Virus record (IMG/VR): IMGVR_UViG_3300027754_000045
Coordinates: 89,851 to 153,850 of that record
Reading direction: 5' to 3' (one strand)
DNA length: 64,000 nt
Origin: a virus
Every line of letters starts with the position of its first letter. Within the stretch, counting starts at the first letter, position 1. A program made the position numbers and the translations under genes. The notes beneath the pieces are model-generated. The model was not told where the DNA came from and made no database searches. It worked only from the letters and a program-made list of their open reading frames with translations. Positions 5,501 through 54,957 of the stretch are shown here, piece by piece.

Positions 5501-7344
5501 CATTCTTTACCACCACAGACGCAGGATTAACTTTCTTTTCAGTTTCTGGCACAAACAACAAGACTTGGCAAGCAGCGTGGACACAACCAATACCGTATAA
5601 TACAATGGCATATGATGGTGTTGTGAGCAGATTAGATTCTGTTGGTGTCACAATGACCTTTGTTGGAAGTCAGCCAATTAAATTAACAAAAGAATTATCA
5701 GTAAATCATTCTTTTAAATATTCTTCAGTAACTAAACCAGGAATAGGAATTACTGCTCCTAGTCGCCATTACGCAATTAATATTTTGTTAGGACTATCTG
5801 GTGGAGCGTTTCACGACGAGAAAAACCTTACTCTTAATACCACTATTGATGCGGCAGTTAAAAAGAGAGATAACTTTACTATATTATTTCAAGAGGACGT
5901 TACAGTACAACAAGAAAATAAATTTAATGCACTAGGAGCAAAGAAATATTACATAAACTCTAGAGGACTTTCTGCAGGTAGTTGGAATTTATCCCAATCA
6001 AACATAGATGCAGCTGTTGCATATTTAAAAGGAGATCTTAATGAACAAGGAAGTATGGTATTTGGTAGAGGCATAACTGCAACCAGTAAATCTTTTATAT
6101 TTTTAGATTTTGAATCAACGTATGATCCTATGACTAAATCAGGAGGACCTACTGTAGATGTCATGTTAGTTGATGGTCATACAGGACCAAATGGTTTTAC
6201 AGGACCAGACGATCTTAGTTTTGATCAAACTTTACTAGATGGTCGAATATTTGGTCAAACCTGTGCAAATAAATATTTTTATGAATGGATTGAAGGTGGA
6301 ACGTCAAATAACGGCACAACATTCCACGGATTACGACATTATTTTCCAGGATGCAGTTTTGGTAATTACGGACCACATTGGTGGTGGGGAAATAGCCAAT
6401 GGTTTGGAAAAACTGATGCACAAATTGACGCACAACTAGAAATAGCCGCAAATACTCTTGTGGCTGGTTGTTCTGCTGCTTTTAAGGCATTTGATATATT
6501 TTCTCCTAGTGTTTATTCTAATGTTAATACCAGAAAATTAACCAGATGGAATAATGCACAAAATGTAAGATTGTATAAAAAAATTAATACAATAATGGGT
6601 ACCAATAAACCAATTATGCCTTGGGTTACTCCAACGTATTGGCATAATGGTACTGGTACTCCTTATACCACAGGCAACGCACCAGATGGTTATACAGGTT
6701 TCGAAGCTCAATATACTCCACCATGGACAATACTTCTAGATACTGACATTGTTTATGAAAATGCAGAACCTCTGATAGCCGAAGGAGCCGATGGAGTAAT
6801 GATTTGGGGTAGTCCAGAATATAGAAGCATTCAAATACTTGGTCGTCCTGGTTGTTCGGATTGTAGTGAATTTTCGTTAATTGGTTTCGAGGGACGTACT
6901 GCGCAAGCTGTTGACGGAAAATATCAACAATGGCCATTAGATAAAGCAACAACTCCAGGTGCAAGTCCTACTGGAATAACATTAAACGAATGGTCTTTCT
7001 TTACAGGTCAACGCCAAGCAATTTCTGCTCACGAGAACTATATAAAAGGCAGAGATATGGGTGTTACTGGTAATCGTTGGTGGTGGAAAGAAATTTCAGG
7101 TTCTACAGCGTATACACCACCAGAATGGGGAAATTTAAACACCAATCTTCAATGGAATGATGCAAATATTACTACTGGTACTACTGGTGCAGAAATAATT
7201 ACAAGAACCTATAGAGATACTTTTTATAATATGGCAAAAGTAATTAAAGAATCATACGGAACAAAAGATCAATGGATCTCTGGAATGACTGGACCAATTA
7301 AAGGTCTTACTGGTAACAGAAGAGTTAATGGAGTACAACAATAA
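1..7344 (+). CDS. Giant tail/adhesin protein: IPT/TIG repeats, heparinase II/III-like and glycosidase-like regions (5' truncated)
   Basis: The frame is open from base 1 to the TAA at 7342-7344, so at least 2447 residues are present and the start lies outside the window. Visible residues 1 to about 836 are roughly ten Ig-like IPT/TIG repeats of 84-86 residues, each with a GTNL..TSSVTVGGV core and a TPGG...FTY end. Residues of about 860-1800 are Trp/Tyr/Gly rich and contain EGWGY, a GHISAYLGDAALLIETG segment and KGHNV, which recall heparinase II/III polysaccharide lyases. Residues of about 1980-2447 contain FLDFEST and GADGVMIWGS, resembling a TIM-barrel glycosidase of the hyaluronidase type. 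The likely role is a virion receptor-binding protein that cleaves surface polysaccharide. The IPT assignment is firm; both enzyme assignments are inference. A TTG at 2563 is internal, not the start. Confidence 0.8.
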   Translation, partial: GTSFTITGTNLTGTSSVTVGGVAATSVAVVSGTSVTAVTPAGTAGVKSVVLTTPGGTATASSAFTYIGVPTITTINPSTGVLAGGTPFTIGGTNLLNTSSVTVGGVAATSVTIVSSTSVTAVTPVGTAGVKNIVLTTPGGTVTFSSAFEYTDIAVFPTITIIAPISGVLAGGTTFGITGTNLSDTSSVTIGGVTATSLTNVSSVFVTARTPAGATIGLKNIALTTPIGTAISANAFTYIGLPTITSIAPTSGVLAGGTTFGITGTNLSNTSSVTVGGVTATSLTNVSDTSVTARTPAGVTTGLKNITLITPGGTTTAPNAFTYIGLPTITEITPNSGPVSTETTVNIDGTNLSGTSSVTVGGVAATNLNIFSPFSVGCDFPVGTIGAKNVVLTTPGGITTALNAFTYIGVPTITSISPTSGVVAGGTTITITGTNLSDTTIVTIDGVEVTSFTNVSSTSVTVVTPAGATIGAKNIVLTNFGGTVTAPNVFTYIGLPTITSIAPASGVLAGGTTLGITGTNLSGTSSVTVGGVTATSLTNVSSVFVTARTPTGAIIGVKNIVLTTPGGITTALNAFTYIGVPTITTINPNTGILAGGTSFTIAGTNLSNTSSVTVGGVAATNVTTLSGTSVTAVTPAGSAGLKNIVLTNPGGTVTASNAFEYTDITIIPTITSISPTSGVLAGGTTLGITGTNLSNTTSVKVDGVTATSLTNVSSVFVTAVTPAGATIGLKNITLNTTLGGVTSVNAFTYIGLPTITSIAPISGVLTGGTTFGITGTNLSDTSSVTVGGVTATSLTNVSSVFVTAVTPAGATTGAKNIVLTTPGGITTALNAFTYTDFNLDFARIQVLADTRISDLWVLDTTKAKPVGVVAGKFYAQSGIDRSQGGYTSAPNGRLTKWAQPLFYTPRSMADVIKGTTAISGLCASLTYNKFGILKNLNYFYGGQTSGSEGSVNMSRLLRLKEGITGGKNVIKRPYSFNDIKTFGLSAGHTLFGNINSDKTVTAVAIAYNNPNSWSLKRNMLLSSLSQIDEWQSYRVLNYLTPLAISWRFQKEIRQNSIGFSNNVSQISESELNAVNTDTLNHLKILLDEYKDHYPLARPNNGVNNTLGSNQTWRGEATSGYPMGLCGSFGVRTSPYPLGATLDFIPALGVNGTTLDTWSPQGWTADTGMYLFDGWGMRYILENMIYLDGVTSVIEPVTTTTQLKADSSWNNILIEVKKLMLKEIFDYVIHTEEGRAWYAKRKYWPDGSERDSLIYADSNPNRIWTEQATGLTGIKYYYNHYFNGTGYWYPEPDNKGYVGTNQNITPMAYRMLATMYLYPYMTLDKERTALLSAYNMMAEECASVLERFLMGVTSSQENSAGYWTEGWGYAAQSMPDFLKILTSMKTMGDRRLWDKKSTPDYFNKTIPGISYSSWTNNTWKWIVSRIMPNNLIINSGSCNSSGWETIGNSYQFTPWGVYLTAVNASESPTPGTTGSAISELHDWFDNNAGYEEEIEYFYNVRKYQERNTYNEKINTPWFYSPGDCIVTWKSEHVIPKFQSDWTYGNNTERPDGKPGYVVNNFNKPLIFGLWAKGVGVSDEKTNVDCGHISAYLGDAALLIETGEPRQLLEFDNDKTNNYFYERETFRVKGHNVMQLGERLDYKNPKYAPWTGVTFTATGGSAFLNATSNYNVRPLKISTPQPLGDNRPNPKDGGFPTWAESDPAWDNVSDGFLYLAGTTQIANTRGGDTAQYLAQSSNILGGSETIDGRAGQYVFEPYQYQIKTCTRGITWEYSAGVAKIRIQDIVGISAFNNNPSFWSATGPYATGPDTRVYYRFHTGYTGANDIAGNPSSTSWPFFTTTDAGLTFFSVSGTNNKTWQAAWTQPIPYNTMAYDGVVSRLDSVGVTMTFVGSQPIKLTKELSVNHSFKYSSVTKPGIGITAPSRHYAINILLGLSGGAFHDEKNLTLNTTIDAAVKKRDNFTILFQEDVTVQQENKFNALGAKKYYINSRGLSAGSWNLSQSNIDAAVAYLKGDLNEQGSMVFGRGITATSKSFIFLDFESTYDPMTKSGGPTVDVMLVDGHTGPNGFTGPDDLSFDQTLLDGRIFGQTCANKYFYEWIEGGTSNNGTTFHGLRHYFPGCSFGNYGPHWWWGNSQWFGKTDAQIDAQLEIAANTLVAGCSAAFKAFDIFSPSVYSNVNTRKLTRWNNAQNVRLYKKINTIMGTNKPIMPWVTPTYWHNGTGTPYTTGNAPDGYTGFEAQYTPPWTILLDTDIVYENAEPLIAEGADGVMIWGSPEYRSIQILGRPGCSDCSEFSLIGFEGRTAQAVDGKYQQWPLDKATTPGASPTGITLNEWSFFTGQRQAISAHENYIKGRDMGVTGNRWWWKEISGSTAYTPPEWGNLNTNLQWNDANITTGTTGAEIITRTYRDTFYNMAKVIKESYGTKDQWISGMTGPIKGLTGNRRVNGVQQ

Positions 7345-7595: not shown

Positions 7596-8861
7596 ATGAA
7601 ACGTTTTTATAATTATTTTCAGTCTACTGAAACTCCTCCAGGATATGTGGAAGGACAGTATTCTTACGGATCTAGTTTTGTACTGAGTGAATCTTGGCAT
7701 GATTACGCTCAAGGATCCGAATTTACTCTAACAGACAATGATGTTCCTGATCGTGTTTATCGCCACGGAGTCGGTGTGGCTGCAGGACAGTTTCGTGACA
7801 GCAAAGGAAACGTGGTAGCGGTTACAGGAAACAGAAACGAATTACATAATTTGTTTCAGTATCGCCCTCAAGAACAAACCCAATACCCAGAACCACAAAC
7901 CAGAATAGAACGAGAGATTGTTCGAGAAACTGGTATTCCTGGACCCAAAGGAGAGAAGGGTGAAGACGGATGGGCTGGTCCCCAAGGAGAGCGAGGTCCT
8001 CGTGGAGATGATGGCCTTCAGGGTGTTCGGGGTCTACAGGGCATTCAGGGAGATCAGGGTCCTCAAGGGCTAGGCGGAGAACAGGGTGATATTGGTCCTC
8101 AAGGAATACAAGGCGACCAGGGTTCTCAAGGAATACAAGGACCACAGGGTGTTCAGGGAGATCAGGGTCCTCAGGGGCTGGGAGGAGAACAGGGTGCTAT
8201 TGGACCTCAAGGCGAACAGGGTACACAGGGAGAACGGGGTATTCCAGGCATTCAGGGCAAGGACGGCTCACAGGGCATTCAGGGGCTTCCTGGAGCCTCT
8301 GGCAAGGATGGTAAGGACGGCAAAACAGGTAAATCTGGACCTCGTGGAGCCCAAGGAACTCAAGGCAAGGCAGGTCCAAAAGGTGATCAGGGAGTAAAGG
8401 GAGATCAGGGTCCGATTGGTCCAGAAGGTGCTCAAGGAGCCATAGGAGAATCGCCAATATTAACTGCCCAGTATCCTTTGGTATTAGAGGATAATGAACT
8501 AACCTTTGATCCCAAGAAAATACAAGAATTTTTATCTGGTTTAATTAAGAGCAAAAGTGACGCTGATCGAGTCTCCCATAACATGGGACTGATGGCTAGT
8601 TCTGGTGGTGGTGCAGTCGGCATCTATAAGGATAAAGCCAGAATTATTAAATCAGTAAATGATATTAATTTTATTGGTAATAATATTGTGGTAACTCGCA
8701 AAGGCAAACAAGTTGATGTGAGTGTTACTGGAGGAGCAGCAGGAGGAGCATTCTACGAATCCGCTACTAGTCCTATAGCTACTTTAATAGACGGAGATCG
8801 TTGGTGGAATACTAATACAGGTAGACTATATACTTGGATTGGAATTTGGGTTGAAATTTAA
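7596..8861 (+). CDS. Collagen-like tail fibre protein
   Basis: 421 residues. Residues 1-112 form a non-repetitive head. Residues 113-284 are an uninterrupted Gly-X-Y run of about 57 triplets rich in GPQ, GDQ and GIQ, typical of phage collagen-like triple-helical stalks. Residues 285-421 form a globular tip that ends with a D-G-D-R-W-W-N-T-N-T-G pattern seen at the ends of other phage fibre proteins. It probably trimerises into a fibre. It lies between the giant tail protein and a second fibre, and a late octamer directly precedes its ATG. No ribosome-binding site is visible, so it may be read from a leaderless message. Confidence 0.85.
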   Translation: MKRFYNYFQSTETPPGYVEGQYSYGSSFVLSESWHDYAQGSEFTLTDNDVPDRVYRHGVGVAAGQFRDSKGNVVAVTGNRNELHNLFQYRPQEQTQYPEPQTRIEREIVRETGIPGPKGEKGEDGWAGPQGERGPRGDDGLQGVRGLQGIQGDQGPQGLGGEQGDIGPQGIQGDQGSQGIQGPQGVQGDQGPQGLGGEQGAIGPQGEQGTQGERGIPGIQGKDGSQGIQGLPGASGKDGKDGKTGKSGPRGAQGTQGKAGPKGDQGVKGDQGPIGPEGAQGAIGESPILTAQYPLVLEDNELTFDPKKIQEFLSGLIKSKSDADRVSHNMGLMASSGGGAVGIYKDKARIIKSVNDINFIGNNIVVTRKGKQVDVSVTGGAAGGAFYESATSPIATLIDGDRWWNTNTGRLYTWIGIWVEI

Positions 8862-45240: not shown

Positions 45241-47559
45241 TTATATATGAGCCGACATACTTGAAACGAGCCGATTTACCAAAGTCCTTGAAACAATCTT
45301 TTTCTGCAAGGATCGAATGAAATTGCTCTTTAACTTGGCGTAAGTGGCATTTCCCATATTAATATCTTCGTAGGCATCAACCGTTTCCTTGCGAGTGCAT
45401 CTAATAATAAACACTTGATTGAAACTTTGTTGTGATTTTTCATTTAGAGGCGTAGTATCTTCAGAATCATAATACATTCTTTGAGAACGATCAGAACACA
45501 CAGCCAGTAGATAATTCTCATTGTTCCATTGGGCAGTAAATTCCGTAGTATCTTGATTGTATGAAGCAGGACTCAACTCAATAATTTTATTATTCTTTCC
45601 CATCATGGCAACATTGTGGGAAGGAATACGAATGCCCTTGACTGATGTAGAAGTATCCAAGAACAGAAGAATTGCATTGCATCCAGTATTATCACGAAGG
45701 TACTCCACACAAACATTTGTGGTCAATCGCTCGTGCATCGAGTATGAAGCACCAGTCCGTTTATTAATAATACGAGTCGGTCTGCGTACACCAATATCAT
45801 CATCATCCCCATAATAATTCCTTGAGATTGGACTTCCCGAAGTCGAGCCGTCTGAAATTACTACGCAGTTCAATATCTCGATTTTATTCTTTTTACGGAA
45901 ATTAATCAAGATTTGATTTGCTGCAATAATCGCATCATCTAGCGGAGTATCACTCAATCGCAAGCACCACGGAGTGTTGGGGCAATCTCCACCAAACTTG
46001 TAGCCGTACCCGCCAAGCACCGCACCCAAGAAGAACAGGTGTCGCATTGCATTCATGTGTTCAGTCTTACGCATCTTGCTAGATGCGAAGTTGTAGAGAT
46101 GGAATGGTTGGGCTGTAACAACACCAGTCTGACCGTAATTGCTTTGAATGTCTTTAACAGAAAACATATTTTTCTGCAATTCTTCTGCCGCTTCACTATA
46201 ATCGCTATATGATTTGTTATCATCTTTATCGTAATTTCCAGTCAAGACTGGGGTGTTTGTACTGAACGCATACACTTCGTATGGCACACCGATGCGGCGA
46301 AAGAAAGATGTAAGAATATACATTTGCTTCACAACATCTTGGACAAGAGGTTGCATCGAGCCACTCCAGTCGAGGAACACCACGAAGCCGTGATTCTTGC
46401 CGTTAGGCTTCACGGTGAAGTGCTTGAAGATGTCCTCGCTCCATTTGTATTGTGTGAGCAAGTTCATATCCAATACGCCAGTCTTGGCAGTCTGATTACG
46501 ATGGTGCTGTTGAGCCGCCTTCTTGGTCAGGAACACCTTGACCATTGCATCGACTGTTGCGTTGGCTTCATTGGTGAACGCATTGTATGAGGTCATAATT
46601 TCTTCTGTTGCCGCTTTCATGCCTTTCGACTTGGAGTTGGATAAAGAGTTTTCTATAGCATTCATAATGTCAACATAAGGAACGATAATTTTCTCAAGAT
46701 TGTATTCGGGAAGATACGCAGGAGCATCTTTATCAGAATAATAATTATCTTTGACCTTGCTGTCTAGCCATTGCTTTTGTGCATTAGCCGTGAATGATTC
46801 GGGTGCAATGTTGTGACGCTGCTCGGATTGCTCTCCCTCTCTTGATTTAGGATCGCCATCACCATTAGTTTCGTATTCGCCATCTTGCCCATCGCCACCC
46901 TTTGTTGGCTTGCCCTGTGGTCGATCACTCGTTTCAGGCTCTTGGTTGGCTTCCTTCTTGGCTTCGTCCCACAAGCGACGAGTCACCGCACACACTTCCT
47001 CAAAAGTCTGTGCCGCCTCAACATCATTGATGATGGCTTGCTCGTCGGCACTAAATGGAATCTGTGTTCCTAGATGCTTGCCAATCTTAAAGTGCAAGTT
47101 GGTACGATCAATGATTCGCATCTTGGTATAGTCTGCGGCACTCAAGTCACCAAACATTTGATTCTCGGCAAGCCACTTGTATCCCTTGTAGTAATCACTA
47201 CGCAATCCTGCATACTTCTCTTTGATGAGTCGTTCAATGCGAGCATCTTCCACGATGTTAAGATACATGGCAGCACGGCTCTTGTCATCATTGCTTGCTG
47301 TCTTACCAACAACAGAGTCAATGAACTGCTCCATGCCTTCAGGTGGCGTGTGGAGTGCGTGGCTGACTTCGTGTGACAGGAACAAGTCATACGCCTCTTG
47401 CGTCATGTCTGACCAGTCAGGCACGGTCAGGACACGACTCTTAACATCCATTGATGCCGTCTTTGCCTTTGAGTCAAAGATCACCGAAAGGTTTTCTGTT
47501 GACATTAGTTTTGCGAAAGTGCTATGACTGCCGTGTGATTGTTGTGAGATTGATTTCAT
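45241..47559 (-). CDS. CobT-like VWA protein with HExxH motif
   Basis: 772 residues. LSHEVSHALH near 67-76 is a zincin-like motif, followed by NIVEDARIERLIKEKY, seen in phage peptidase-like proteins. The middle is acidic (residues about 200-260). A C-terminal VWA domain has the MIDAS motif DWSGS near 395. This is the CobT-like partner of the MoxR/CobS-type ATPase encoded just upstream. In cobaltochelatase such pairs insert cobalt; in phages the substrate is unknown. Transcribed from its own sigma-70 promoter with leaderless geometry. Confidence 0.8.
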   Translation of the reverse strand: MKSISQQSHGSHSTFAKLMSTENLSVIFDSKAKTASMDVKSRVLTVPDWSDMTQEAYDLFLSHEVSHALHTPPEGMEQFIDSVVGKTASNDDKSRAAMYLNIVEDARIERLIKEKYAGLRSDYYKGYKWLAENQMFGDLSAADYTKMRIIDRTNLHFKIGKHLGTQIPFSADEQAIINDVEAAQTFEEVCAVTRRLWDEAKKEANQEPETSDRPQGKPTKGGDGQDGEYETNGDGDPKSREGEQSEQRHNIAPESFTANAQKQWLDSKVKDNYYSDKDAPAYLPEYNLEKIIVPYVDIMNAIENSLSNSKSKGMKAATEEIMTSYNAFTNEANATVDAMVKVFLTKKAAQQHHRNQTAKTGVLDMNLLTQYKWSEDIFKHFTVKPNGKNHGFVVFLDWSGSMQPLVQDVVKQMYILTSFFRRIGVPYEVYAFSTNTPVLTGNYDKDDNKSYSDYSEAAEELQKNMFSVKDIQSNYGQTGVVTAQPFHLYNFASSKMRKTEHMNAMRHLFFLGAVLGGYGYKFGGDCPNTPWCLRLSDTPLDDAIIAANQILINFRKKNKIEILNCVVISDGSTSGSPISRNYYGDDDDIGVRRPTRIINKRTGASYSMHERLTTNVCVEYLRDNTGCNAILLFLDTSTSVKGIRIPSHNVAMMGKNNKIIELSPASYNQDTTEFTAQWNNENYLLAVCSDRSQRMYYDSEDTTPLNEKSQQSFNQVFIIRCTRKETVDAYEDINMGNATYAKLKSNFIRSLQKKIVSRTLVNRLVSSMSAHI

Positions 47560-47565
47560 GTCAGT

Positions 47566-47593
47566 ATTGTACCAAAGTTTTGAGTGGTGTCAA
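47566..47593 (-). promoter_or_regulatory. Sigma-70 promoter TTGACA-16-TACAAT, leaderless geometry
   Basis: Minus-strand TTGACA (47593-47588) and TACAAT (47571-47566). The A of the ATG at 47559 lies seven bases after the -10, so the message should begin with AUG. TTTGG before the -10 gives an extended TGn-like element. Confidence 0.8.
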
Positions 47594-47980: not shown

Positions 47981-48108
47981 TTCACAATCTCCTTTGTTGT
48001 TGGTTTAACATCAGTCCATTCATCATCGTCGTAGGTTACATCATCTTCGTCGGTGTCAGGGGGGTCGGGAAATGACCCCCCTGCCTGTTGCGAGAACGAA
48101 TTACGCAT
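47977..48108 (-). CDS. Tiny acidic protein
   Basis: 43 residues, disordered and acidic (DPPDTDEDDVTYDDDEWTDV). It starts at an ATG overlapping the stop of the CobS-like gene and ends in ATGA with the next gene. A longer frame begins at 48219 inside the ATPase gene, but its extra residues only shadow that gene. Function unknown; coupling suggests a small partner of the ATPase. Confidence 0.6.
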   Translation of the reverse strand: MRNSFSQQAGGSFPDPPDTDEDDVTYDDDEWTDVKPTTKEIVK

Positions 48109-49315
48109 TGTCGGCTTCCTGTGGCTCGCTGCCGATGCTGTTGGGTTGAACAGGTGGTTTCCCAGTAAAAGGATCAATACCATGATTAACCTCAACACCA
48201 CCATTGATCGTAGGATCAATCTTTGTGTAGAAGTTCATGAATGCCGTCTTGGTTTCAGTATCGAAACGGCTCAATGCTCGCTCAATGCTGACCATGCGAA
48301 CTTCCAAGACTGCATACAACTTTGCAATGGCTTCCAGTCGGCGAGTGGAAATAATCTCGCTGACTGCACCTTCATAGAACGCCTTGCGAATGGTTTCCGA
48401 CCATCGTGTCAAAGCATCGGCAAAGTCATTGTCACGCTTGCCAAACGCTTCCATCTTCTTGATGAGAATACGCTTCTCTGTGCCACGAGGAGCATACTCT
48501 TGCTCGTAAGTGAAGTCGAAGCGATCCAAGAACGCCTCGTTCAAGATGTTAGTTCCCACAAAGCGTCCATCGTCGCTGCCCTTGCCTTTGGTATTGGCTG
48601 TGGCAAGAATGGTGAAGCCCTCAACAGGACGAATCCACTTGTTGATCTTCTTCAAGAACACGCCCTTGCCCTCAAGCACAGGCTGCAAGCACATAATCTT
48701 ATGTGATCCCAAGTCCACTTCGTCGAGGAGAAGAACGCCGCCGCACTCCATCGCCTTCACGACTGCACCATCTTGCCAAACAGTATTACCGTTGACAAGT
48801 CGCATACCGCCCAACAAATCATCCTCGTCAGTCAACTCGGTAATGTTCACACGAAACAGTTGACGCTTTTGCTTGGCACAAATCTGCTCGATCATGGTTG
48901 TCTTGCCATTGCCTGACAAGCCAGTCACGAACACAGGTGCAAACTTCTTGGACGAGATAATCTTTGCAATCTCGTCGTAGTGTCCCCACGGAATGTATGT
49001 TGCATTGACATCAGGAATCAACTGCTCATGGGATTGCGAGTTGGTCATAACGGCTTGCATTGTAGTATCATTCATATTAGAGTCCAGTAAGTTCTGCTCA
49101 GGTTGAGCGATTGGTGGAAGTAAAGTTTCAGTATCAAGTTCAGGGACATTGAATAGTCCACGACTGACTCGATTTTCGGGAGTGACTGCCCAAAGTGGTG
49201 TGACTCCAAGTCCCACGCCTTTTGCAGCCACAAGAATCTGTTCACGGCTCAACGGATTAGTGTAACCTAGTCGTTGCATTTCTTTAATTACGAGTAATTT
49301 TTTTGAGTGTTTCAT
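48101..49315 (-). CDS. cobS: MoxR/CobS-like AAA+ ATPase
   Basis: 404 residues. Walker A GLSGNGKTT lies near 130-138 and Walker B GVLLLDEVD near 193, followed by ILATANTKGKG (sensor 1) and an Arg-containing AFLDRFDFTYEQEY segment. The N-terminal 60 residues (EMQRLGYTNPLSREQIL) form a small helical module. This matches the CobS subunit-like proteins of T4-like marine phages. With the VWA protein it should form a chaperone-like remodelling complex. Whether it serves cobalamin metabolism is unproven, although the genome also encodes B12-dependent NrdJ. Confidence 0.88.
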   Translation of the reverse strand: MKHSKKLLVIKEMQRLGYTNPLSREQILVAAKGVGLGVTPLWAVTPENRVSRGLFNVPELDTETLLPPIAQPEQNLLDSNMNDTTMQAVMTNSQSHEQLIPDVNATYIPWGHYDEIAKIISSKKFAPVFVTGLSGNGKTTMIEQICAKQKRQLFRVNITELTDEDDLLGGMRLVNGNTVWQDGAVVKAMECGGVLLLDEVDLGSHKIMCLQPVLEGKGVFLKKINKWIRPVEGFTILATANTKGKGSDDGRFVGTNILNEAFLDRFDFTYEQEYAPRGTEKRILIKKMEAFGKRDNDFADALTRWSETIRKAFYEGAVSEIISTRRLEAIAKLYAVLEVRMVSIERALSRFDTETKTAFMNFYTKIDPTINGGVEVNHGIDPFTGKPPVQPNSIGSEPQEADNA

Positions 49316-49735: not shown

Positions 49736-50002
49736 TTAATAATTGTCTGCGTCATTGTATCCATCATACTCTAGTGGAATCGGTTCAGGATCATACTGAT
49801 CTTCGTCATCAGCATCTAAACTCTTATCTTCATCGTCTGATTCTTTATCTTCCGAATCAACAACATCCATTTCGTTAGTCTGTGATCCATCATCTATTTC
49901 AACATTTTCATTCTCAAGATCATCTAAATCAATATCATCATCCAAGACAAAATCATCAGAATCTCTGTCAAATTGTTCACGATAAAATTCTTCGTAGTTC
50001 AT
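49736..50002 (-). CDS. Highly acidic small protein
   Basis: 88 residues, more than 40 percent Asp plus Glu and almost no basic residues after position 12. Such proteins can mimic DNA and block host nucleic acid-binding enzymes, as phage Ocr does, but no specific family is recognised. It starts in a TAATG overlap with the upstream gene. Confidence 0.65.
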   Translation of the reverse strand: MNYEEFYREQFDRDSDDFVLDDDIDLDDLENENVEIDDGSQTNEMDVVDSEDKESDDEDKSLDADDEDQYDPEPIPLEYDGYNDADNY

Positions 50003-50316
50003 TATTTTGTACCTTTCTTTTTAATAACTTTCTTTTTAGTCTTTGTTTTCTTAAACTGGTTTATAGTCATCGTTGGCTTAAAGTCATCCACGAATTGTTG
50101 TAGGCTTTCGTTTACTGATTCGAATATCTGATCCATACAATTCATATCACAAAATTTTTCCAAGATCATTTCACATTCTGCGTCAGTTAAAGACTGAGAA
50201 CCATCACACATTCTTACATCTTCAATTTCCCAGTATGTTGCAATTATTTTTGGATCATGACCATCAGCCATGCTTTTCATAAATGCGATCTCGTCACTCA
50301 TTTTTCTCAATCTCAT
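50002..50316 (-). CDS. Hypothetical protein
   Basis: 104 residues. Acidic N-terminal two thirds (DVRMCDGSQSLTDAECEMILEKFCDMNC) and a Lys-rich tail (KKTKTKKKVIKKKGTK). The ATG lies in an ATGA overlap with a six-codon leader peptide that itself starts at the predicted transcription start. Function unknown. Confidence 0.6.
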   Translation of the reverse strand: MRLRKMSDEIAFMKSMADGHDPKIIATYWEIEDVRMCDGSQSLTDAECEMILEKFCDMNCMDQIFESVNESLQQFVDDFKPTMTINQFKKTKTKKKVIKKKGTK

Positions 50317-50333
50317 TGTGTTTCTTCTTTCAT
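50313..50333 (-). CDS. Six-codon leader peptide MKEETQ
   Basis: ATG AAA GAA GAA ACA CAA TGA, with the ATG seven bases after the -10 of the promoter at 50340 and the TGA overlapping the ATG of the next gene. The same ATG position heads full genes behind the sister promoters, so this mini-frame probably loads ribosomes onto a leaderless message and hands them to the real gene. Confidence 0.5.
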   Translation of the reverse strand: MKEETQ

Positions 50334-50339
50334 GTCAGT

Positions 50340-50367
50340 ATTGTAGCAAAGTTTCGGTTAGTGTCAA
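50340..50367 (-). promoter_or_regulatory. Sigma-70 promoter TTGACA-16-TACAAT, leaderless geometry
   Basis: Minus-strand TTGACA (50367-50362) and TACAAT (50345-50340), with GCTACAAT at the -10. An ATG begins seven bases downstream at 50333. Confidence 0.8.
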
Positions 50368-52471: not shown

Positions 52472-52750
52472 TTACTCAATTCCTTGAATTACATGAATCT
52501 CTACGATAGAATCATTACGGAATGAACGCCACTCCTCAATATCCAAGTCAAAGATTGCTGTAGTATTATCTTGTTTCTTATGATTATACTTACGATCACG
52601 CCATTCTTTCGGCATCAACTCAAGGTTCATTGTGCCACGCAACTTGCGTAACGATCCGTCTGCCTTTACAAAGGTTACTCGCAGGTAACCTTTGAATTGC
52701 TTTAGATTCTCAAGTGCTTCCGTACTCCATGCTTGTGTAAGCGTACTCAT
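52472..52750 (-). CDS. SH3-fold phage accessory protein
   Basis: 92 residues. LRVTFVKADGSLRKLRGTMNLELMP...IFDLDIEEWRSFRNDSIVEI is the pattern of a small beta-barrel family common in T4-like and other phages, typically described as SH3 beta-barrel fold proteins. Probably binds nucleic acid or protein, but function is not established. ATGA overlap with the upstream gene. Confidence 0.75.
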   Translation of the reverse strand: MSTLTQAWSTEALENLKQFKGYLRVTFVKADGSLRKLRGTMNLELMPKEWRDRKYNHKKQDNTTAIFDLDIEEWRSFRNDSIVEIHVIQGIE

Positions 52751-53130
52751 TGCATATCTCCTTCGGTTTGGGGTTTAGTGTCCAGTTCTCCACATTGCGC
52801 CAATTCAAGTTTCAGCATCATATTTTGATTCTCGGCTTCACGCAACTGCTGATTCAATCCAATGATTCTGCCTAGTGTGATGCCAAGATACTCGGTAGTC
52901 TTTTCACACAACTGTGTGAAATTATTGACTGGCTCAGGCTCTACATTTTCTGAAATGCTGTCAATAAACTCAAGAGAGTCTGACATCTTATCAACAATAT
53001 CTTTCACATCACGACACAGGTCAACAACTTCGCCAATGTCCATTGCTTTATCATAATTAAATCCCAAAGCAACTTCGTCGGGAGCATTTTCAACAACATG
53101 GCTGATAAACTGGTCATAGGTAGGTTTCAT
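52747..53130 (-). CDS. Helical hypothetical protein
   Basis: 127 residues, acidic. The N-terminal half is helical (VVDLCRDVKDIVDKMSDSLEFIDSI); the C-terminal part (IIGLNQQLREAENQNMMLKLEL) is a coiled-coil. ATGA overlap with the 39-residue gene upstream. Function unknown. Confidence 0.65.
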   Translation of the reverse strand: MKPTYDQFISHVVENAPDEVALGFNYDKAMDIGEVVDLCRDVKDIVDKMSDSLEFIDSISENVEPEPVNNFTQLCEKTTEYLGITLGRIIGLNQQLREAENQNMMLKLELAQCGELDTKPQTEGDMQ

Positions 53131-53246
53131 CGGTAATCCTCTCGGTAATCGGTTGTGTCCATTTGAAAGTCATAATCTACATCATCAAGTACATACTCTT
53201 GGTAGAGTTCATTCATGTATTCATTGTATTCAGGTTCGTCGTTCAT
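53127..53246 (-). CDS. 39-residue acidic protein at a leaderless start
   Basis: MNDEPEYNEYMNELYQEYVL followed by 19 mostly acidic and tyrosine-containing residues. The ATG is seven bases after the -10 at 53253, and the TGA overlaps the next ATG (ATGA). It contains seven tyrosines. It may act both as a product and as a translation starter for the operon. Confidence 0.65.
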   Translation of the reverse strand: MNDEPEYNEYMNELYQEYVLDDVDYDFQMDTTDYREDYR

Positions 53247-53252
53247 GTGTGT

Positions 53253-53280
53253 ATTGTAGCAAAGTTTTATGGTATGTCAA
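53253..53280 (-). promoter_or_regulatory. Sigma-70 promoter TTGACA-16-TACAAT, leaderless geometry
   Basis: Minus-strand TTGACA (53280-53275) and GCTACAAT with TACAAT at 53258-53253. The ATG at 53246 is the predicted first transcribed base. Confidence 0.8.
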
Positions 53281-54325: not shown

Positions 54326-54546
54326 GGTGTCATGTTCTCCGCTTTGTATACAATACCAACCAAGAACTTAGCCGCATCACAGGCAGCAATGAATTGCAGT
54401 TGATTGTACTCTTTAAGATTCCGTGCATTATCCTTCGCTTGGGCAATAGCCGCCGACTCTTGTGATTCAATGATTGCAAGAGTCTTGTTGCGAGCATTAC
54501 GCAATTTGGTGAATTGATCATCCAAAACGCCATCATACTCTTTCAT
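54322..54546 (-). CDS. Small helical hypothetical protein
   Basis: 74 residues, predicted long helix (QFTKLRNARNKTLAIIESQESAAIAQAKDNARNLKEYN) then a hydrophobic segment. AAGGAAATAT precedes the ATG, which lies inside the end of the upstream gene. Function unknown. Confidence 0.6.
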   Translation of the reverse strand: MKEYDGVLDDQFTKLRNARNKTLAIIESQESAAIAQAKDNARNLKEYNQLQFIAACDAAKFLVGIVYKAENMTP

Positions 54547-54757
54547 TGGTATATTTCCTTTCGTTTGCTTCGCATTGACCGTTCATCCATGCAGACTCGT
54601 TTGCTTCGCATTGACCACTCATCCATGCAGACTCAATTAAATTTTTAAATGTTTCAATGGTGATATGAACATGATTCGTATGTTCGGGTGGAGTGAGTGC
54701 GAGTGCGATTTTAAGGAAATACTCTTTATTGATTTCCTGTTGTGTCATCTTCTCCAT
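54533..54757 (-). CDS. Small protein paralogous to the next upstream gene, with internal duplication
   Basis: 74 residues. LTPPEHT.HV.ITIETFKNLI.SAWMSGQCE aligns with the neighbouring 66-residue protein. Near the C terminus ESAWMSGQCEAN is repeated as ESAWMNGQCEAN, encoded by a 36-bp direct duplication. TAATG overlap with the upstream gene. Function unknown; no metal-site pattern beyond single Cys. Confidence 0.65.
   Translation of the reverse strand: MEKMTQQEINKEYFLKIALALTPPEHTNHVHITIETFKNLIESAWMSGQCEANESAWMNGQCEANERKYTNERV
54561..54632. repeat. 36-bp tandem duplication
   Basis: Two 36-bp units, 54561-54596 and 54597-54632, differ at two adjacent bases. The duplication is in frame and doubles a 12-residue block in the 74-residue protein. 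Confidence 0.95.
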
Positions 54758-54957
54758 TATGATGCAATCTCCTGCAATTCTTTGTTTGTTATCTCTAGTT
54801 GTTCACACTTGCCACCGATCCACGCCATGCCGATCAGGTTCTTGAATGCTTCAACGCTGATGTCAACACGATCCTTCGTGTGTTCGGGTGGAGTGAGTAC
54901 AATGCCGATGTTTACGATAAAATCCTCAGACATGGTTGTTTTTTGTGTGTCGCTCAT
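54757..54957 (-). CDS. Small protein, paralogue of its downstream neighbour
   Basis: 66 residues. LTPPEHTKDRVDISVEAFKNLIGMAW.GGKCE matches the protein encoded next downstream, indicating a tandem gene duplication. ATGA overlap with the upstream gene. Function unknown. Confidence 0.65.
   Translation of the reverse strand: MSDTQKTTMSEDFIVNIGIVLTPPEHTKDRVDISVEAFKNLIGMAWIGGKCEQLEITNKELQEIAS

Follow-up and report, generated by a model that had tools for sequence, protein, structure and literature searches.

A six-codon, predicted leaderless frame overlapping the start of a 104-codon gene in a marine T4-like phage

Introduction

Several mRNAs of E. coli carry an AUG at their very 5' end, upstream of the true start codon, among them those of ptrB, rcnR and others (PMC4965119). 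By analogy, ptrB is the closest precedent for the locus described below. Changing its 5' AUG to AUC left less than 8% of the expression, an early stop kept 40%, and the leader measures 26 nt, as described in the available text of the same article. The cI mRNA of phage lambda is a leaderless phage mRNA (PMC4965119, PMC9031893). In phage AR9 the leaders range from 26 to 491 nt, and the authors of that paper remark, as an aside, that leaderless transcripts are frequent in phages (PMC5312081). Promoters were predicted in a marine methylophage paper, in the available portion of which a leaderless result was not found (PMC9004378). Among overlapping gene pairs of the ATGA or TGATG type, 13 of the 14 tested in H. 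volcanii and E. coli were strictly coupled, and removal of the Shine-Dalgarno sequence cut restarting by 60–90% or abolished it in four of five E. coli pairs (Huber et al., PMC6728339, available text).

The window analysed here is a 64,000-nucleotide stretch corresponding to bases 89,851–153,850 of a 153,850-base T4-like virus record (marine phage). On its minus strand a frame of six codons, MKEETQ, stands between a promoter and an open reading frame (ORF) of 104 codons. Like the E. coli mRNAs described in the accessible text of PMC4965119, the predicted transcript has an AUG at its 5' end with a possible role in ribosome loading, and the distance to the real start is short, 17 nt compared with 26 nt in ptrB. 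Unlike them, it has a weak Shine-Dalgarno sequence before the real start, the mini-frame ends exactly on the start codon, and the gene belongs to a phage and not to the host. The ATGA stop/start overlap is that of the termination-reinitiation pairs in the available text of PMC6728339, whereas here the first frame has six codons, is predicted to be leaderless and has no clear internal Shine-Dalgarno sequence. As in lambda cI, the mRNA is predicted to begin with AUG, but in cI, as far as the sources above describe it, the AUG opens the gene itself, and here it opens a mini-frame before the gene. Leaderless and coupled translation are both known, and the layout looks like a small variation on them.

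Results

Layout of the locus

The features are listed in Table 1. The initial annotation had described MKEETQ as encoded from the predicted first transcribed base, with its TGA overlapping the next ATG, and the minus-strand sequence confirmed this, the transcription start being a prediction. The six nucleotides ACTGAC separate TACAAT from ATGAAAGAAGAAACACAATGA, which encodes MKEETQ; the seventh base after the -10 hexamer is the usual sigma-70 transcription start. Four bases, ATGA (50316–50313), are common to the TGA of the mini-frame (50315–50313) and the ATG of the 104-codon ORF (50316), which is the stop/start overlap (ATGA or TGATG) that characterises overlapping gene pairs. One mark of a leaderless mRNA, a strong promoter directly 5' of the ATG in an arrangement that recurs in the genome, was also found.

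Table 1. Coordinates of the mini-frame, its promoter, the neighbouring genes and two sister promoters in the window.
Feature	Position	Strand	Remarks
-35 hexamer TTGACA	50362..50367	(-)	6/6 consensus
-10 hexamer TACAAT	50340..50345	(-)	5/6 consensus; spacer 16; TG one base upstream of hexamer
Predicted first transcribed base	50333	(-)	A of leader ATG; 7th base after -10; prediction
Six-codon frame MKEETQ*, predicted leaderless	50313..50333	(-)	ATG AAA GAA GAA ACA CAA TGA
104-codon ORF	50002..50316	(-)	ATG overlaps mini-frame TGA (ATGA)
Alternative later start ATG (MSDEIAF...) of 104-codon ORF	50301	(-)	within predicted weak hairpin
88-codon ORF	49736..50002	(-)	start overlaps 104-codon ORF stop (TAATG)
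CobS-like gene	48101-49315	(-)	
CobT-like gene, 772 codons	45241-47559	(-)	
Sister promoter+ATG of CobT-like gene	47557..47593	(-)	35/40 bases identical to mini-frame promoter+ATG+AAA
Sister promoter with predicted leaderless frame of 39 codons (53246-53127) and ORF of 127 codons (53130-52747)	52747..53280	(-)	ATGA overlap of frame and ORF

The 104-codon ORF had a codon-use score of 0.203 in its own frame, the best of the six frames (next best 0.071), with the record's own ORFs of at least 250 codons, CobS included, as the training set. Its C-terminal part gave a weak PHROG match (phrog_16717, E 0.0037), and no relatives of the protein were found in the phages, viral_contigs and genome_contigs collections. 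The CobS-like protein matched 499 phage records, mostly of cyanophages, the best being Pelagibacter phage HTVC008M (46.9%). The PHROG matches were consistent with the CobS-like and CobT-like assignments; CobT as a single query against viral_contigs returned no relatives.

Initiation signals

The hybrid with the anti-Shine-Dalgarno sequence at 50316 had a free energy of -1.8 kcal/mol, the median for random 20-mers being -1.45, and the canonical Shine-Dalgarno sequence of the downstream start in ptrB-type mRNAs was absent. Nearby, six starts reached -5.8, -7.4, -9.1, -5.8, -6.6 and -8.8 kcal/mol, and others were weaker (-4.0, -3.9, -3.7, -2.7 and -0.9 kcal/mol). Among 24 other starts standing behind 5' frames, a single one (in locus L130, -0.2) had a weaker Shine-Dalgarno sequence, and 56 of 137 crude, uncurated starts of this record were at -1.8 or weaker. 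The first 32 nt of the mRNA were unpaired in the predicted fold. No hairpin beyond chance was present in the first 70 nt of the predicted transcript (z -0.38), and no terminator-like site was listed between 49000 and 50980. The predicted leader of 17 nt (50333 to 50316) would be short but allowed, since the leaders not found in Lactococcus cremoris, according to the available part of PMC10986495, are those of 4–14 nt.

Recurrence of the promoter with an ATG at six nucleotides

The pattern TTGACA-N15-18-TANAAT-N6-ATG occurred seven times in the window and never in 100 shuffles; as a unit of promoter and ATG, the site is not due to chance. The whole 153,850-base record contained nine such sites, compared with none for the reversed pattern: seven opened frames of 39–772 codons, and the other two were the mini-frame and a tRNA-Ile promoter. 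Apart from the mini-frame, the window sites opened frames of 772, 189, 95, 84, 66 and 39 codons, those of 84 and 66 codons ending in ATGA and TAATG overlaps, respectively. When up to one mismatch in 12 was allowed, 26 promoter-like sites were found in the whole record, ten of them with an ATG at exactly 6 nt (the tRNA-Ile promoter, the mini-frame and eight frames of at least 39 codons). The exact cassette AACTTTGSTACAATACNNACATGAA had no match in viral_contigs. Because this geometry recurs and opens frames of at least 39 codons, this phage very likely makes a habit of leaderless starts; and because it opens seven other frames (39–772 codons), the 5' AUG of the mini-frame is probably used. The initial statement that no other such operon has a mini-frame is true of the window only if very short frames are meant: the frame of 39 codons at 53246 has the same ATGA overlap with the 127-codon ORF.

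Some further observations were made in this record. Site 8444, considered as a second mini-frame, was rejected, as it corresponds to the tRNA-Ile promoter and its ATG is incidental. The tRNA-Ile (8452–8525) and tRNA-Leu (5575–5647) genes (locus L010) start 7–8 nt after the predicted -10, and their transcripts are predicted to begin almost at the mature 5' end. At position 83328 (+) of the record (locus L014) a promoter precedes ATGTTATGA, where a frame of two codons stands behind a AGAAAGAAG stretch and overlaps the start ATG of a long ORF. The adjoining ORFs of 66 and 74 codons at 54533–54957 of the window resemble diverged duplicates, with a common ...LTPPEHT... stretch.

Predicted leaderless starts in related T4-like contigs

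The search for the promoter+N6+ATG unit in relatives took in 47 of 82 loci, and 12 sites were found in nine of these 47 records (approximately 2.07 Mb, sum of the listed lengths), with none for the reversed pattern; the density in the present phage was about ten times higher. The contig with the best CobS match (G001, 53%) had three sites in 30 kb, and none was found in HTVC008M and ACG-2014j. A set of 93 loci (1.14 Mb, some overlapping, with the sites made unique) gave 771 promoter-like sites matching at least 10 of 12 positions. An ATG stood at offset 6 in 46 of the 771, the average for the remaining 45 offsets being 18.3. Frames of 40 or more codons numbered 27 at offset 6 (6.6 on average at the remaining 45), short frames 19 (average 11.6), and short frames whose end falls on the start of an ORF with at least 50 codons three (average 1.4). 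On these counts predicted leaderless starts are clear in the relatives, and the excess of short 5' frames is mild. Several genes begin 6 nt behind a good -10 and so look leaderless, for example CobT in L017, L030, L041, L044 and L060, and gp43 (DNA polymerase) in L061, L063, L064 and L077; no such start was seen directly before gp44, an internal gene.

Comparable short frames upstream of gp55 and CobS

A similar arrangement was found before gp55 in locus L111, where TATAAT-N6-ATG opens the frame MFAKRLK*, which has an ATGA overlap with the gp55 start. For CobS, 80 loci were found, of which 56 were taken (the other 24 were cut or had no clear start). The leaders of 47 were usable; nine (L017, L018, L021, L039, L046, L052, L053, L056 and L068) were left out for lack of a leader, a misplaced or weak -10, or duplication. 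An ATG was located 4–12 nt after the -10 in 23 of the 47 leaders (2000 shuffles gave 9.0, sd 2.7, largest 19), and 13–21 nt after it in 9 of 43. Nine of these 23 frames were in frame with CobS, eight (L019, L022, L031, L032, L041, L047, L048 and L084) ended between -2 and +4 relative to the CobS start, and six did neither. The counts for frames 0, 1 and 2 were 11, 2 and 10, so that frames 0 and 2 made up 21 of 23 (p 0.007, uncorrected for relatedness). Grouping by similarity gave 16 clusters, seven of frame 0, seven of frame 2, one of frame 1 and one mixed, the last with all three frames among similar leaders. In one cluster of similar leaders, L025, L034, L038 and L070 were in frame and L032 and L077 out of frame. 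The mixed cluster is the best sign that the 5' AUG may be kept in CobS leaders while its frame drifts.

The mini-frame resembles these short frames of IMG/VR T4-like contigs (gp55 in L111; CobS in, e.g., L031, L041, L048 and L084) in the succession of a promoter, 6–9 nt, an ATG, and a frame ending on or beside the ATG of the gene. It differs in that their gene starts have a Shine-Dalgarno sequence and their promoters are farther from consensus. All eight coupled CobS leaders had one (-4.3 to -7.3), as do most CobS leaders of the relatives, so that the 5' AUG may be dispensable there. An attenuator-like arrangement lies approximately 70 nt before CobS in L066, where the 5' frame MMREGFSLSIF* extends across a GAGAGGGATTTTCCCTCTC hairpin and TATTTTTT comes next.

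Chance level of the overlap

Perfect promoters (TTGACA, TATAAT) in IMG/VR served as a control, in two scans of at least 120 stretches each, which are neither random nor complete samples. Among the matches listed, an ATG at offset 6 opened a long or unfinished frame in 74 of 121 cases, and at offset 13 in 26 of 119. Short frames had their end at the start codon of a longer ORF in 14 of 47 cases at offset 6 and in 26 of 93 at offset 13, again among the matches listed. Since the overlap is equally frequent at both offsets, that of MKEETQ is, taken alone, at chance level, a coincidence of about one in three. The coupling frame was taken by 11 of 22 at offset 6 (11 to 11) and by 23 of 51 at offset 13 (23 to 28), among the matches listed. 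A frame bias as a general sign of coupling was rejected, being present in the CobS leaders and absent from this sample.

Discussion

We propose, tentatively and rating it a little short of probable, that the 5' AUG is where ribosomes load, and that after terminating at the TGA they reinitiate on the overlapping AUG. In this model, a host sigma-70 promoter would fire at 50333, the position inferred from the hexamers, to give an mRNA that begins with AUG. Ribosomes would bind this terminal AUG without a leader, as expected for the sister genes of the phage, read six codons, stop at the UGA and presumably restart to make the 104-residue protein, the MKEETQ peptide itself being of no importance. 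Read-through RNA from upstream would have no terminal AUG, so the 104-codon gene would be made mainly from its own promoter. The recurrence of the N6 spacing, the enrichment of offset 6 in relatives, the weak Shine-Dalgarno sequence at 50316, the unpaired first 32 nt and the strict coupling of 13 of 14 overlapping pairs (PMC6728339) all point in this direction. Against it, the overlap is at chance level, weak Shine-Dalgarno sequences are common in this phage, and the 104-codon gene has no relatives in the collections searched. The mild excess of short frames at offset 6 in relatives could be produced by a purine preference at +1. The restart step is weakened because, according to the available text of PMC6728339, restarting strongly needs a Shine-Dalgarno sequence in four of five E. 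coli pairs. The initial annotation had taken loading at a 5' AUG as the selected trait. The seven sister frames make use of the AUG probable, and the 23 of 47 CobS leaders lend support from relatives, but selection for loading at the MKEETQ site finds no support: relatives are absent from the three collections, the overlap is equal at offsets 13 and 6, and the coupling frame stands at 11 to 11 among the matches listed.

It is possible, if somewhat unlikely, that the 5' ATG is incidental and was carried along with a promoter cassette (promoter+ATG+AAA), in which case translation would start directly at 50316, 17 nt from the 5' end, the leader being unstructured, rich in A and poor in its Shine-Dalgarno sequence (AAAGAAGA). 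In favour of this, the promoter of CobT and that of the mini-frame share 35 of 40 bases between the -35 and codon 2, and the overlap is at chance level in the broad IMG/VR sample; the leader is unpaired in the predicted fold, and weak starts are common here. However, the hybrid at 50316 is near random and only that of L130 is weaker among the 24 starts compared, and if the host uses 5' AUGs, the leader AUG would divert ribosomes from the second one.

A one-base insertion or deletion, in the phage or in the assembly, may have broken a leaderless gene. We consider this improbable. The MKEETQ and 104-codon frames differ by one base, and a single extra base would join MKEETQ and the 104-codon ORF into one continuous frame, like those behind the sister promoters, where the seven other sites of the record open frames of at least 39 codons. 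The ORF nevertheless has its own ATG exactly on the mini-frame stop, and no relative or second copy for comparison was found in the three collections.

Distinctly improbable in our view is that the 5' AUG would only hold the ribosome on the mRNA until it shifts to the nearby AUG without restarting, as proposed for ptrB, whose expression levels quoted above (PMC4965119) speak for such a role. The relatives that keep the 5' ATG while the frame varies among similar CobS leaders (one cluster) would fit such a standby role, yet most of these leaders have a Shine-Dalgarno sequence, and the excess of frames 0 and 2, uncorrected for relatedness, hints that the frame matters. A regulatory leader peptide, attenuating or stalling, is suggested by the position of a short frame directly 5' of a gene and is very improbable: an attenuator was rejected after the fold of the first 70 nt, neither alternative hairpins nor a terminator-like site were found, and the peptide MKEETQ lacks a run of any single regulatory codon.

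In the portion of the literature available, no report of leaderless starts in T4-like marine phages was found. If our reading of these starts is true, it is a warning that the starts assigned by gene callers are wrong in marine T4-like phages, as leaderless starts 6 nt after the -10 look common in them. A broader and rather speculative view, which we hold to be unlikely, is that the promoter of this marine T4-like lineage comes with a 5'-terminal AUG of its own, a built-in ribosome-loading site, and that the two together can be placed before any ORF. A fitting frame would then become the gene start, a short one would otherwise pass the ribosome to the next AUG, and the gene would be translated only from the transcript of its own promoter and not from read-through RNA. 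Loading at the 5' AUG followed by a restart, if right, would make this locus a natural and very small test of the 5'-terminal AUG as the ribosome entry for a gene almost without a Shine-Dalgarno sequence.
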